Shown piece by piece: positions 7,547 to 11,819 of a stretch of 64,000 bases of DNA. The stretch covers positions 1-64,000 of the forward strand of contig CALFBI010000011.1 of the NCBI GenBank assembly GCA_937951675.1, read 5' to 3'. Position 1 is the stretch's first letter. Each line of letters begins with the position of its first letter. The stretch is from an uncultured Verrucomicrobiales bacterium (GTDB lineage: Bacteria; Verrucomicrobiota; Verrucomicrobiia; Verrucomicrobiales; Akkermansiaceae). Under the pieces are notes generated by a model. It was not told where the DNA came from and made no database searches. It was given only the letters and a program-made list of their open reading frames with translations. A program made the position numbers and the translations under genes.

Positions 7547-9313
7547 TCAATTCAATAATTCGGAATAGGCATTCCATGCCATTTCACGGCTCAGTAAATA
7601 AATCTCGCGACTATTTGGGCAAGCGAGAGCTTCCCGAGCAAGTTCCCGGCATTCTTTTGCGTCGAGCGAACGGATCGCTTGTTTCACAATGGGGACCGTC
7701 ATTGACCCCACGGAAAGTTCATCAACTCCAATGCCTACCAAAAGAGGGAGTAAATTAAGGTCACCGGCCATTTCTCCACAAACGCCGGTCCAGATTTGGT
7801 TCTGCCGAGCGCCATCTACCGTTAGCTTCATCAGGCGGAGAACGGCAGGGTGAGTCGAGCGATAAAGATCTGCGACACGGTGGTTTACTCGATCGACTGC
7901 AATCGTGTATTGAATGAGGTCATTGGTGCCAATCGAAAGGAAGTCCACTTCAGCCGCGATATCATTTGCCATAATAGCTGCGGACGGAACTTCGATCATC
8001 GCTCCAATTTCAATCCCTAAATCAAAATCAACCCCGGCAATATGGAGCTCATTCATGCAAGCATTTACAATCGCTTTAGCCTCATGAATTTCATGTAATC
8101 CTGAAATAAGGGGGAACATGATACCTGCTTTGCCATGGGCACTTGCTCTTAGAATCGCACGGATCTGTGCTTTAAAAAGAGCGGGGCGAGCAAGGGAAAA
8201 ACGAATACCACGCCACCCAAGGAAAGGATTAGGTTCTGGTTCGGGAAGAGGTTCGCCAGGAAGTTTGTCTCCTCCAGCATCCAGAGTTCGGAAGATGACT
8301 TGTTCGCCATTTGCGGCTTCGATAATCTTAGTGTAGAGAGCCGTTTGCTCTTCCTCACTCGGGTATTCTTCGTTCTCAAGCAGAAAAAATTCAGTTCGGA
8401 AAAGACCTACTCCTTTGGCTCCTGAATCTTGGAAGCTTGGGATTTCATGATCAAACTCCATATTGGCAGAGAGCGTGATCTTGTGACCATCGAGCGTGAT
8501 GGCTTCTTGCTCTTTGAGAAGTTTGAGCTTTTCTCCAATTTCTTCGCGGTGTTTGAGGTGCCTTTGGTATTCTTTAAGGGTGTTCTCAGATGGGTTAAGG
8601 ATGAGCTTCCCACTGTAACCATCAAGAATACTCATCGTGAGGGCCTGCACATCCATCACGACATTATCGATTCCCATAATGGCGGGAATCCCCATGGATC
8701 TCGCTAAAATAGCGGTGTGTGAGTTAGGGCTTCCAATTTCGGTGACGATTCCGAGCACTTGTTCGCGGTCAATACTGGCCGTGTCAGAAGGAGAAAAATC
8801 GTAAGCAATGAGAAGGTGTTGCTGATCAGGCCGTTCATCGTCTTGGTGGTCGCCAAGATTAAAATTTCTTAACAAACGTTTCGAGACATCTTCGATATCG
8901 GCAGCTCTCTCTCTTAAATACGGGTCTTGAATCCGACGCATCGCTTCGAGATAGGTCTGCATGACGGCATAAAAACAATATTCAGCGTTTTGATTTCGCT
9001 CGTCGATGGCATCAGAAACTCGTTTGAGGAGTTTGTGATCTTCAAGGATCATGAGGTGAGCTTCGAAGATTTTACCTTCTTCTTCGCCACTGATTTGCTC
9101 GATTTGAGTTTGGAGAGAATCGAGTTGCTTGCGGGTTCGCTCGAGAGCGGTTTCGAATCGCCCCTTTTCCTTGGCGATGTAAGCGTTGGGAATGTGGTAA
9201 ACTTCAGGAGCTGAGAACCCACGAGCCGAAACATGTGCCGGAGCAATCACAATTCCACGAGACACGGGAGTGCCTTGAAGAATGATTTCTTGATTGCTAG
9301 GAAGTGAATGCAT
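7547..9313 (-). CDS. ptsI: Phosphoenolpyruvate-protein phosphotransferase (PTS enzyme I)
   Basis: Enzyme I takes the phosphoryl group from PEP and passes it to HPr. The 588-aa protein has the N-terminal HPr-binding/phosphohistidine domain with the active site GSPNSHTAILARSMG, putting the phosphorylated histidine at 199. The C-terminal PEP-binding barrel carries GAKGVGLFRTEFFLL, FRTLDAGGDK, FLSIGTNDLIQY and GVCGEMAGD. There is no GAF domain, so it is the sugar-type enzyme rather than PtsP(Ntr). The first ATG has no Shine-Dalgarno sequence; a terminator-like hairpin ends only 6-18 bases before it (separate entry). HPr lies upstream. No EIIA, EIIB or EIIC gene is in the window, so the chain may serve regulation or a transporter encoded elsewhere. 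Confidence 0.95.
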   Translation of the reverse strand: MHSLPSNQEIILQGTPVSRGIVIAPAHVSARGFSAPEVYHIPNAYIAKEKGRFETALERTRKQLDSLQTQIEQISGEEEGKIFEAHLMILEDHKLLKRVSDAIDERNQNAEYCFYAVMQTYLEAMRRIQDPYLRERAADIEDVSKRLLRNFNLGDHQDDERPDQQHLLIAYDFSPSDTASIDREQVLGIVTEIGSPNSHTAILARSMGIPAIMGIDNVVMDVQALTMSILDGYSGKLILNPSENTLKEYQRHLKHREEIGEKLKLLKEQEAITLDGHKITLSANMEFDHEIPSFQDSGAKGVGLFRTEFFLLENEEYPSEEEQTALYTKIIEAANGEQVIFRTLDAGGDKLPGEPLPEPEPNPFLGWRGIRFSLARPALFKAQIRAILRASAHGKAGIMFPLISGLHEIHEAKAIVNACMNELHIAGVDFDLGIEIGAMIEVPSAAIMANDIAAEVDFLSIGTNDLIQYTIAVDRVNHRVADLYRSTHPAVLRLMKLTVDGARQNQIWTGVCGEMAGDLNLLPLLVGIGVDELSVGSMTVPIVKQAIRSLDAKECRELAREALACPNSREIYLLSREMAWNAYSELLN

Positions 9314-9318
9314 GTTTG

Positions 9319-9361
9319 AAAAATAGAAAAAGGCTGCGATTGAGGTTCTTCAATGGCAGCC
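9319..9361 (-). terminator. Intrinsic terminator/attenuator between HPr and enzyme I genes
   Basis: Read on the minus strand, GGCTGC-C-ATTGA pairs with TCAAT-C-GCAGCC around a 6-base loop. This gives an 11-bp stem with one C-C mismatch, followed by TTTTTCTATTTTT. It has the form of an intrinsic terminator. It stands between the HPr stop and the enzyme I ATG, with the T-rich tract ending about 5 bases before that ATG. It should lower enzyme I expression relative to HPr, or could be regulated. No separate promoter between it and the enzyme I gene is possible in the space left. Confidence 0.75.
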
Positions 9362-9390
9362 TAAGAAAGTAGAGGGTTGCTGCAGTTCTT

Positions 9391-9654
9391 TCAGTCTTCG
9401 AAATCTCGTTTGACTAAAGAGGAAAGCTCTTTGAGTGCGTCATCAGCATCTGCGCCCTCTGCTTCAATGATTAATTCAGAGCCATGGCCTGCAGCAAGCA
9501 TCATTAACCCCATGATACTTTTACCATCAACTTCTTCATCGTCTTTATGAACTTTGATTTCAGATTCAAAGCGATTTGCAAGTTTCACAAATTGCGCGGC
9601 AGGTCGGGCGTGAATTCCGAGCTTGTTGGTAACAGTGACTTCGCAGGTAGACAT
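9391..9654 (-). CDS. ptsH: Phosphocarrier protein HPr
   Basis: An 87-residue HPr. The PTS phosphorylation site His15 lies in NKLGIHARPAA, and the regulatory serine Ser46 in DGKSIMGLMMLAAG, the site used by HPr kinase/phosphorylase. Both sites are intact, so it can take part in transfer from enzyme I and in ATP-dependent seryl regulation. Immediate neighbours fit: HPr kinase upstream, enzyme I downstream. The 117-base gap before it holds only a weak GGTC/GACC hairpin and no clear Shine-Dalgarno sequence; the start is preceded by AT-rich sequence. It belongs to the HPr/Crh class that works with HprK, as in Firmicutes and many Gram-negatives with a reduced PTS. Confidence 0.95.
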   Translation of the reverse strand: MSTCEVTVTNKLGIHARPAAQFVKLANRFESEIKVHKDDEEVDGKSIMGLMMLAAGHGSELIIEAEGADADDALKELSSLVKRDFED

Positions 9655-9771: not shown

Positions 9772-10743
9772 TTATTCGTAAGAGTCTGCTTCAGAAGAGC
9801 CCAAAGCCATTTTTTGTAAGAGTCTTTGATTGAATTCATCCGCCATATCATAGCCCAGCTTACGAAGTTGAAGGTCTAAAGCCGCAATGGTGACAAGTCT
9901 GGCGGTATCACGACCGGCCGCTACGGGGATCTCAACCATAGGAACATCGATGCCTAGCACTTCATAAGCTTTCCGCTGCATTCCGAGACGATCCACCTTA
10001 TTGAGGTCACTTTCTGGTTTAAGAAAAACTACGAGATCGAGTTTTTTCTCAGGTCGAATCGCAGAGAGCCCATAGATATTAGCGACATTAATGATCCCGA
10101 TGCCTCGCATTTCCATATACCCTTGAGAGAGTTCAGGAGCACTCGTGATGAGCGAAAGTCCAATTTTACGAACATGAACAAGATCATCGGCAACGAGAGA
10201 AGCACCTCGATCGAGAAGACCAATGGCGGTTTCACTTTTCCCTGCTCCACTTTTCCCCATCACCAATACCCCAATGCCCCGGATATCCACCATGCATCCG
10301 TGTAATGAAACGGAAGAAGCAAAGGAGCCCTGGAGAAGAATGGTTGCTGAATTCAGGAGATTGAGTGTTTTCTGAGGGGTTGAAAAAATGACGATATTTT
10401 CTTCTTCCGCAATTTTTAATAATTCGGGAGGAATCTCGAGGTCACGAGTCCAAATAAAACAAGGCACATCTTGTTGGCAAACTTGAGTAAAGATACTTTG
10501 TAATTTCTCAGTAGATAACTCAGCGAGGTAAGAAGCTTCCGCATTCCCGATTACCTGAATCCTTTTATGCGCAAAAGAATCGAAATATCCGGTCAGCGCG
10601 AGTCCTGGACGATAAAGAGCCGGCTCACTAATAGGGCGATCTAACCCTGCCTCAGAAGTCATCAATGAGAGCATTAATTTACTCCCGTGAGATTCAAAAA
10701 AATGGCGAACCGTAATGGATGAGATGGTGCGTATTTTAGCCAT
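9772..10743 (-). CDS. hprK: HPr kinase/phosphorylase
   Basis: A bifunctional enzyme that phosphorylates HPr at Ser46 with ATP and reverses it with phosphate. The Walker A motif GKSGAGKSETA begins near residue 163. The family signature EMRGIGIINVANIYG follows, as does the C-terminal helix region MVEIPVAAGRDTARLV. I start it at the ATG at 10743 (MAKIRTISSITVRHFF), which gives about 323 aa, the usual HprK length. An in-frame upstream start at 10794 would add 17 residues and run into the end of pyrD. The N-terminal half (about residues 1-130) corresponds to the regulatory HprK_N domain. It sets metabolic control through HPr phosphorylation; which regulator reads HPr-Ser-P here is unknown. Confidence 0.93.
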   Translation of the reverse strand: MAKIRTISSITVRHFFESHGSKLMLSLMTSEAGLDRPISEPALYRPGLALTGYFDSFAHKRIQVIGNAEASYLAELSTEKLQSIFTQVCQQDVPCFIWTRDLEIPPELLKIAEEENIVIFSTPQKTLNLLNSATILLQGSFASSVSLHGCMVDIRGIGVLVMGKSGAGKSETAIGLLDRGASLVADDLVHVRKIGLSLITSAPELSQGYMEMRGIGIINVANIYGLSAIRPEKKLDLVVFLKPESDLNKVDRLGMQRKAYEVLGIDVPMVEIPVAAGRDTARLVTIAALDLQLRKLGYDMADEFNQRLLQKMALGSSEADSYE

Positions 10744-10754
10744 AGCTAGAAAAG

Positions 10755-11819
10755 TTAAAGTGACGAGTGTTGGTGACAGCTCGCTTGAGCGCAAGTTTCT
10801 AAAATATCGCTAACGAGGGCAGGGCCTTTATAAATAAACCCTGAATAGACCTGAACGAGCGAGGCTCCTGCTTGGAGTTTATCCAAAGCATCTTGTCCGC
10901 TCATGATGCCACCTACTCCGATAATAGGAACCTTGCTCCCGAGATGAGAATGAAATGCGGCAATGATTTCGGTAGATTTTTGAGTCAGTGGGGCTCCTGA
11001 TAGGCCTCCTGCTTCTTCGCCGTATTTTTCGCCTTTGACGGCATCACGGGAAATAGTGGTATTGGTGGCGATGAGTCCCTCTAGGCCTGCGCGTAAAAAA
11101 CCTTTACTCAAGTCTTCAACTTCTTGCTCTGTCAGATCAGGAGCCACTTTAAGTGCGATCGGGACTTTCTTTCCATATTCTTTCTCAAGTTTCACTTGCT
11201 CTTCACGAAGTCGTGTCACGAGCTTTTCAGCGAGATCTGCAGACTGAAGATCTCGCAAGCCTGGAGTATTGGGAGAAGAAAGATTAACAGTGATATAATC
11301 GGCAACTGGAAAGGCGGCCTGGAGACACTTAAGGTAATCCTCCGTCGCCTCTGAATTAGGTGTGATCTTATTTTTGCCGATATTGAACCCGATGAGGCCT
11401 TCGAAATGCTTTGATTCTGAGACATTTTGAACGCCTCGTTCAATGCCTGGGTTATTGAAACCAAATCGATTAATGAGCGCTTCTTTCGGAGGGATTCGAA
11501 AAAGACGAGGTTTTGGATTACCAGGTTGAGCAATAGGAGTAATCGTTCCAATTTCGATGAATCCAAATCCCATTCTTCCTAAGGCATCAATGCACGAGCC
11601 TTCTTTATCTAAACCTGCCGCTAATCCAACTGGGTTAGGGAATTTCAGACCCATGCATTCAACCGGTTGCTCCCAGTGTGGAGGAAGAGAGAGTCCTGAA
11701 AAAAGCCCTGCTTTTTCTGAAACGGATAATCCATTCATCGTTAAATGATGGGCAACTTCAGGATCGAGCTTGAAGAGAATATTTTTGGCAAGAGGGTAAA
11801 GTGGCGACAAAAGGCTCAT
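10755..11819 (-). CDS. pyrD: Dihydroorotate dehydrogenase (quinone), class 2
   Basis: Catalyses dihydroorotate to orotate with a quinone as electron acceptor, the fourth step of pyrimidine synthesis. Class 2 (membrane-associated) features are the N-terminal helices YPLAKNILFKLDPEVAHHL and the catalytic serine region NLSSPNTPGLRDLQ. Other motifs are PVGLAAGLDKEG, INRFGFNNPG and the FMN phosphate site IIGVGGIMSGQDALDKL. Length 354 aa is normal. It is the first gene of the minus-strand run and ends 11 bases before the hprK start. The other pyrimidine genes seen here (pyrR, pyrB, pyrC) lie 27 kb away, so pyrD is regulated apart from them. A divergent promoter region of about 210 bases separates it from NAD kinase. 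Confidence 0.96.
   Translation of the reverse strand: MSLLSPLYPLAKNILFKLDPEVAHHLTMNGLSVSEKAGLFSGLSLPPHWEQPVECMGLKFPNPVGLAAGLDKEGSCIDALGRMGFGFIEIGTITPIAQPGNPKPRLFRIPPKEALINRFGFNNPGIERGVQNVSESKHFEGLIGFNIGKNKITPNSEATEDYLKCLQAAFPVADYITVNLSSPNTPGLRDLQSADLAEKLVTRLREEQVKLEKEYGKKVPIALKVAPDLTEQEVEDLSKGFLRAGLEGLIATNTTISRDAVKGEKYGEEAGGLSGAPLTQKSTEIIAAFHSHLGSKVPIIGVGGIMSGQDALDKLQAGASLVQVYSGFIYKGPALVSDILETCAQASCHQHSSL

Follow-up and report, generated by a model that had tools for sequence, protein, structure and literature searches.

How is enzyme I (EI) of the PTS produced when a terminator-like structure stands directly before its start codon? The question is raised by a locus in a window of 64,000 nt, the whole stretch of DNA that was analysed, in which HPr and EI are co-directional genes of one pathway with a terminator between them (Table 1). 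EI is the entry point of PEP phosphate into the organism's PTS chain, and profile searches of the genome returned only one HPr gene and a single EI match; EI must therefore get expressed somehow. The same genome has one PTS EIIA_2 domain (G000:C9:89622-90053). As profile searches found neither EIIC (PF02378) nor EIIA-man (PF03610) in the genome, the PTS, with one HPr, one EIIA_2-type protein and HprK, looks regulatory, with no predicted sugar permease of the EIIC/EIIA-man families. If EI is indeed held at a fixed low ratio to HPr, this would determine how far HPr is phosphorylated.

A preliminary description of this DNA had proposed that the hairpin and T-tract have the form of an intrinsic terminator, and sequence and folding confirm it: a stable, GC-rich stem-loop is followed immediately on its 3' side by the T-tract. 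On the minus strand, the lower stem pairs AGGCTGC (9362-9356) with GCAGCCT (9337-9331), seven pairs of which five are G-C, and the upper stem pairs ATTGA (9354-9350) with TCAAT (9343-9339) over five pairs. The only mismatch in the stem, C9355 opposite C9338, lies between the two parts, and the loop is AGAACC (9349-9344, 6 nt). Over 43 nt the MFE is -16.8 kcal/mol, whereas shuffled sequences average -5.96 (sd 2.3), which gives z -4.71; 0 of 200 shuffles fold as well. With flanking sequence the full terminator folds at -18.3 kcal/mol. The hairpin begins 28 nt after the HPr stop, and the spacer CAAAC (9318-9314, minus strand) separates the T-tract from ATG 9313, the only in-frame ATG, GTG or TTG nearby. 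The distance to the start, first put at about 5 bases, is thus exactly 5; the initial limits of the element (9319-9361) were right at the tract end, and the stem starts one base further out, at 9362. For this genome the terminator is ordinary and of mid-strength: among 95 post-stop terminator-like sites sampled, 64% have a stem energy at least as strong, and 51% score as high as its tail (4.71). A simple terminator scan of the window did not list this hairpin, we think because the scan rule excludes an internal mismatch. Likewise, a stem test over EI leaders gave it 0 pairs because that test permits no mismatch within the stem. No tRNA was found near the locus.

Table 1. Features of the HPr-EI locus and other gene starts that follow a strong terminator (positions refer to the window unless a locus is named).
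Feature	Position	Strand	Basis or remark
HPr kinase/phosphorylase gene	9772..10794	-	TIGR00679, E 3.5e-100; upstream of HPr; start uncertain
HPr gene	9391..9654	-	TIGR01003, E 1.5e-30; upstream of terminator
Terminator-type hairpin, 12 pairs (7 + 5)	9331..9362	-	sequence and fold
TTGAAG	9348..9353	-	register of relatives' -35 (5' T at -40), within upper stem and loop
T-tract TTTTCTATTTTT	9330..9319	-	sequence; begins at the base directly after the stem
TATTTT	9325-9320	-	only weak -10 candidate; inside T-tract, ends 6 nt before ATG
Enzyme I gene	7547..9313	-	TIGR01417, E 1.3e-164; downstream of terminator
CoaE start	L138 12653	-	after strong terminator
Riboflavin synthase start	L128 14955	-	after strong terminator
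YacP-like start	L148 8820	+	after strong terminator
SpoU-like start	L153 5252	+	after strong terminator

The sequence before ATG 9313 has no Shine-Dalgarno (SD) site, as had been pointed out; this is true and uninformative as an argument, since SD matches are at about control level in this genome. Genes were called with a simple custom codon-usage caller, so that their starts carry some error, and gave two sets: 327 genes from the window and 20 stretches (320 with enough upstream sequence) and 301 genes from a second 20 stretches. SD 4-mers at -17..-4 had a frequency of 0.069 in the 320 genes (controls 0.087/0.116) and of 0.113 in the 301 genes (controls 0.100/0.116), with no enrichment over controls in either set. 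In a genome with no SD signal, a missing ribosome site before EI is therefore the rule. A 16S rRNA from which to read the anti-SD was not found in the 28-contig assembly, probably because of an assembly gap.

As for promoters, a two-block model trained on 428 genes of the same genome with an upstream gap of at least 50 nt, EI being left out, recovered the signal TTG-17-nAnnnT, mostly ending 6-9 nt before the start. TANNNT ends at this distance in 27 of 219 genes, with about 12 expected from positions further up, and in 30 of 210 genes of a second set, with about 14 expected. Over the whole genome (G000), TTG-17-nAnnnT lies close to many starts, and no SD signal is present. The sequence suggests that leaderless or near-leaderless mRNAs are widespread in this organism. 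The window EI has no recognisable promoter of this kind: its near-start LLR is -0.70, a value that 53% of shifted control stretches reach. The best placement in the model is TTGAAG-17-TTTTCT, with its -35 in the register used by relatives and a -10 without its A, the T-tract filling the -10 position. No nAnnnT occurs at 16-18 nt from TTGAAG before the window EI, and the near-leaderless sigma-70-type pattern is thus missing there.

The picture is different in related bacteria. We defined a promoter pattern as TTGnnn (at least 4 of 6), 16-18 nt, nAnnnT, 3-15 nt and the start, and searched 112 EI loci (30 + 25 + 18 + 40, less L053, in which no EI start was found); not counted were L001, which duplicates the window, and L032-L035, the four distant loci that were all a scan for named relatives yielded. 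The pattern precedes EI in 63 of the 112 loci, against 2.3 expected from shuffles. EI was found in 233 of 244 genomes of the family, and among the 94 family loci examined, the window included, 60 have the pattern near the start. It occurs both next to HPr (41/61 HPr-adjacent loci) and where no HPr was found upstream (19/28). Genera differ: all sampled EI loci have it in g16 (14), g13 (13), g11 (7) and g8 (2), part of them in g7 (10/15), g9 (7/13) and g14 (4/6), and none in g10 (0/10), g12 (0/3), g6 (0/3), g3 (0/2) and g4 (0/1). In these relatives the first base of the -35 lies 36 to 44 nt upstream of the EI start, and 86% of the 93 other family EI starts score above the -0.70 of the window. 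The argument that the gap leaves no room for a second promoter was therefore wrong in principle, as most family loci hold a promoter pressed against the EI start, and one can fit the HPr-EI gap with almost no leader. With the EI promoter unrecognisable in the window species, the conclusion behind that argument may still hold. Judged by sequence, the window terminator occupies the site of what is, in most relatives, EI's own predicted promoter.

The likeliest explanation, to which we give roughly even chances, is that EI is made by constitutive read-through of the terminator, at a level below that of HPr. The intrinsic terminator would stop most transcripts carrying HPr, and EI would be translated from the minority that pass it, so that HPr mRNA would constitutively exceed EI mRNA. 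Translation of EI would begin without an SD site, on the U/A-rich unpaired stretch 3' of the hairpin. That transcription terminates here, with what efficiency, and that no other transcript carries EI are what we infer from the sequence. Read-through, already put forward in the preliminary description, thus keeps the support of the sequence, in the strong hairpin and T-tract after the HPr stop and the background score of the EI promoter, and loses the two arguments from lack of room and lack of a ribosome site. Against it stand the lack of conservation of the hairpin at this position and the fact that TTGAAG and TATTTT could still form a weak promoter.

The latter leads to a second explanation, possible though not probable in our view, according to which transcription of HPr stops at the terminator and EI is served by its own leaderless or near-leaderless promoter inside it, a degenerate version of the one common in the family, with TTGAAG as -35 and TTTTCT or TATTTT of the T-tract as -10. 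The prevalence of such promoters before EI in the family speaks for it, as do the register of TTGAAG, a hexamer found identically in genus g7 (L082, L018, L083, L017), and the enrichment of near-start -10 signals in the genome itself. However, the -10 at 17-nt spacing reads TTTTCT, with no A at position 2, and pairing TTGAAG with TATTTT would require a spacer of 22 nt. The register match may moreover be due to chance, given that TTGA is found at -44..-36 in 47 of 621 genes of the genome, compared with 32 in a control stretch. With the EI score at background level, we demoted a leaderless promoter in the T-tract from main answer to this secondary place.

Alternatively, the hairpin might stop little transcription and instead shield processed HPr mRNA at its 3' end, with unequal levels of the two messages arising from RNA decay. 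This we regard as unlikely: a GC-rich stem running straight into a long T-tract is what a terminator looks like, and many post-stop sites of this genome are built in this way. Regulated antitermination of EI, also raised in the preliminary description, is very improbable and was rejected: GCAGC (9383-9379), just 3' of the HPr stop, can pair with GCUGC (9360-9356) of the 5' arm, and truncated leader folds do form this 5-bp alternative (-6.1 kcal/mol) before the 3' arm exists, but the full terminator fold wins easily, a 5-bp match is estimated to arise by chance in a few per cent of cases, most relatives have no such terminator and no conserved alternative fold is present, the genome has no CAT_RBD (PF03123, LicT/BglG-type) antiterminator (the control search was positive in 4/14 named genomes), and no Rfam element was found at E up to 1.

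Read-through from a start-abutting terminator might not be confined to EI. In 42% of the genome, 6 of 51 post-stop terminators with a co-directional next gene end at most 15 nt before its start (4/27 and 2/24 in the two sets). Besides EI, the abutted genes encode CoaE (PF01121), riboflavin synthase (PF00677, two matches), a YacP-like NYN protein (PF05991) and a SpoU methylase (PF00588), and the GTG start of the sixth is itself doubtful. The CoaE, YacP and SpoU starts are supported by best Pfam matches that begin at residues 5, 6 and 2, respectively, only the first 100 codons of the YacP-like and SpoU-like genes having been scanned against Pfam. For riboflavin synthase, the better of the two PF00677 repeats begins at residue 99, and the alignments of the relatives begin at residue 1. 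None of the six starts, EI included, scores well for a near-start promoter; the other five have LLR values from -0.21 to -3.18, and terminator-abutting starts thus seem to depend on read-through.

We then looked for coaE and riboflavin synthase in 34 genomes each, examining the best 30 of 34 and 33 matches, respectively. Among these best 30, a terminator-like site lies within 110 nt of coaE in 17 loci, that of this genome included, and the tract is at most 25 nt from the start in 6, which come from five genera within the family and from one further family. A T-tract ending at or near the coaE start was seen in other genera at L183, L173, L176, L171 and L184, and that of L183 runs into the ATG. 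As for riboflavin synthase, any terminator-like site was found in only 2 of the best 30 loci, and close to the start only in the locus of this genome. It is tempting to speculate that in this SD-less lineage start-abutting terminators are a general device that would both cut transcription to a fixed fraction and supply a U-rich unpaired stretch on which the ribosome could land. EI, CoaE, riboflavin synthase and the YacP-like and SpoU-like genes would be examples, the coaE case recurring in relatives; the idea is a doubtful one. Arrangements of this kind are already known, and what our analysis adds is that several unrelated genes of one genome share it. Operon prediction that ends a transcription unit at each terminator would go wrong at such starts.

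How old the arrangement is before EI can be approached through the relatives. The hairpin is not conserved at the window position among 69 other HPr-adjacent loci, in which only L016, L074 and L090 show a hairpin with a tract 10-18 nt from the start, in each case a weak one (-7.4 to -9.6 kcal/mol). HPr-EI hairpins of -13 kcal/mol or lower occur at L007, L047, L083, L085 and L099, where 47-164 nt separate the T-tract from the EI start and so leave room for a promoter. As the hairpin is not conserved, selection for a fixed HPr:EI ratio is not apparent from these sequences. The window species is the only one of its genus available for comparison, and in a tree of 48 EI proteins it branches off close to the base of the family as sampled, its long branch standing beside other long ones. 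Loss of an ancestral EI promoter, overwritten by the terminator, would fit the register of TTGAAG.

We also considered a family-wide leader hairpin at a fixed distance from EI, which found no support, the mean z over 94 loci being -0.48 at -50..-1 and hardly different, -0.33, at -100..-51. A clear excess of leader hairpins is found only in genus g9 (9/13 loci against 1.8 expected). There, a short inverted repeat (for example ACGAG..CTCGT, ACGGG..CTCGT or CGGG..CCCG) is located at about -40 to -18 before EI in L014, L016, L024, L090, L096, L098, L105, L108 and L112. It sits some 17 nt ahead of the start codon, and several loci have it between the -35 and the -10. This repeat is possibly an operator.

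Transcripts carrying ptsH only have reportedly been described in older work on E. coli and streptococci, and our literature search found no paper on them. In Bacillus subtilis, ptsG resembles the HPr-EI case in that an intrinsic terminator is present in a pts locus, the RAT/terminator controlled by GlcT; that element, however, lies before ptsG rather than ptsI and needs a CAT/PRD antiterminator (PMC12445079), which is absent here. Akkermansia muciniphila resembles this genome in having promoters pressed against start codons and few SD sites: leaderless transcripts represent 10% of its start sites in the Cappable-seq data cited (PMC4782308), and it is listed among SD-scarce species (PMC10783764). 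Unlike the leaderless cases described there (PMC4782308), the window EI has no recognisable promoter. A precedent is offered by the ABC importers of cellulolytic Clostridia, in which internal intrinsic terminators set SBP:translocator ratios (PMC9045158). The internal terminators there are poorer in U than canonical ones and have longer GC-rich stems (PMC9045158), whereas the tail and stem energy of the HPr-EI terminator are ordinary; the latter is not a member of this low-U, long-stem subclass. What both have in common is a stem-loop between the gene needed in excess and its downstream partner, an arrangement in which partial termination is proposed to set the ratio of the two (PMC9045158).
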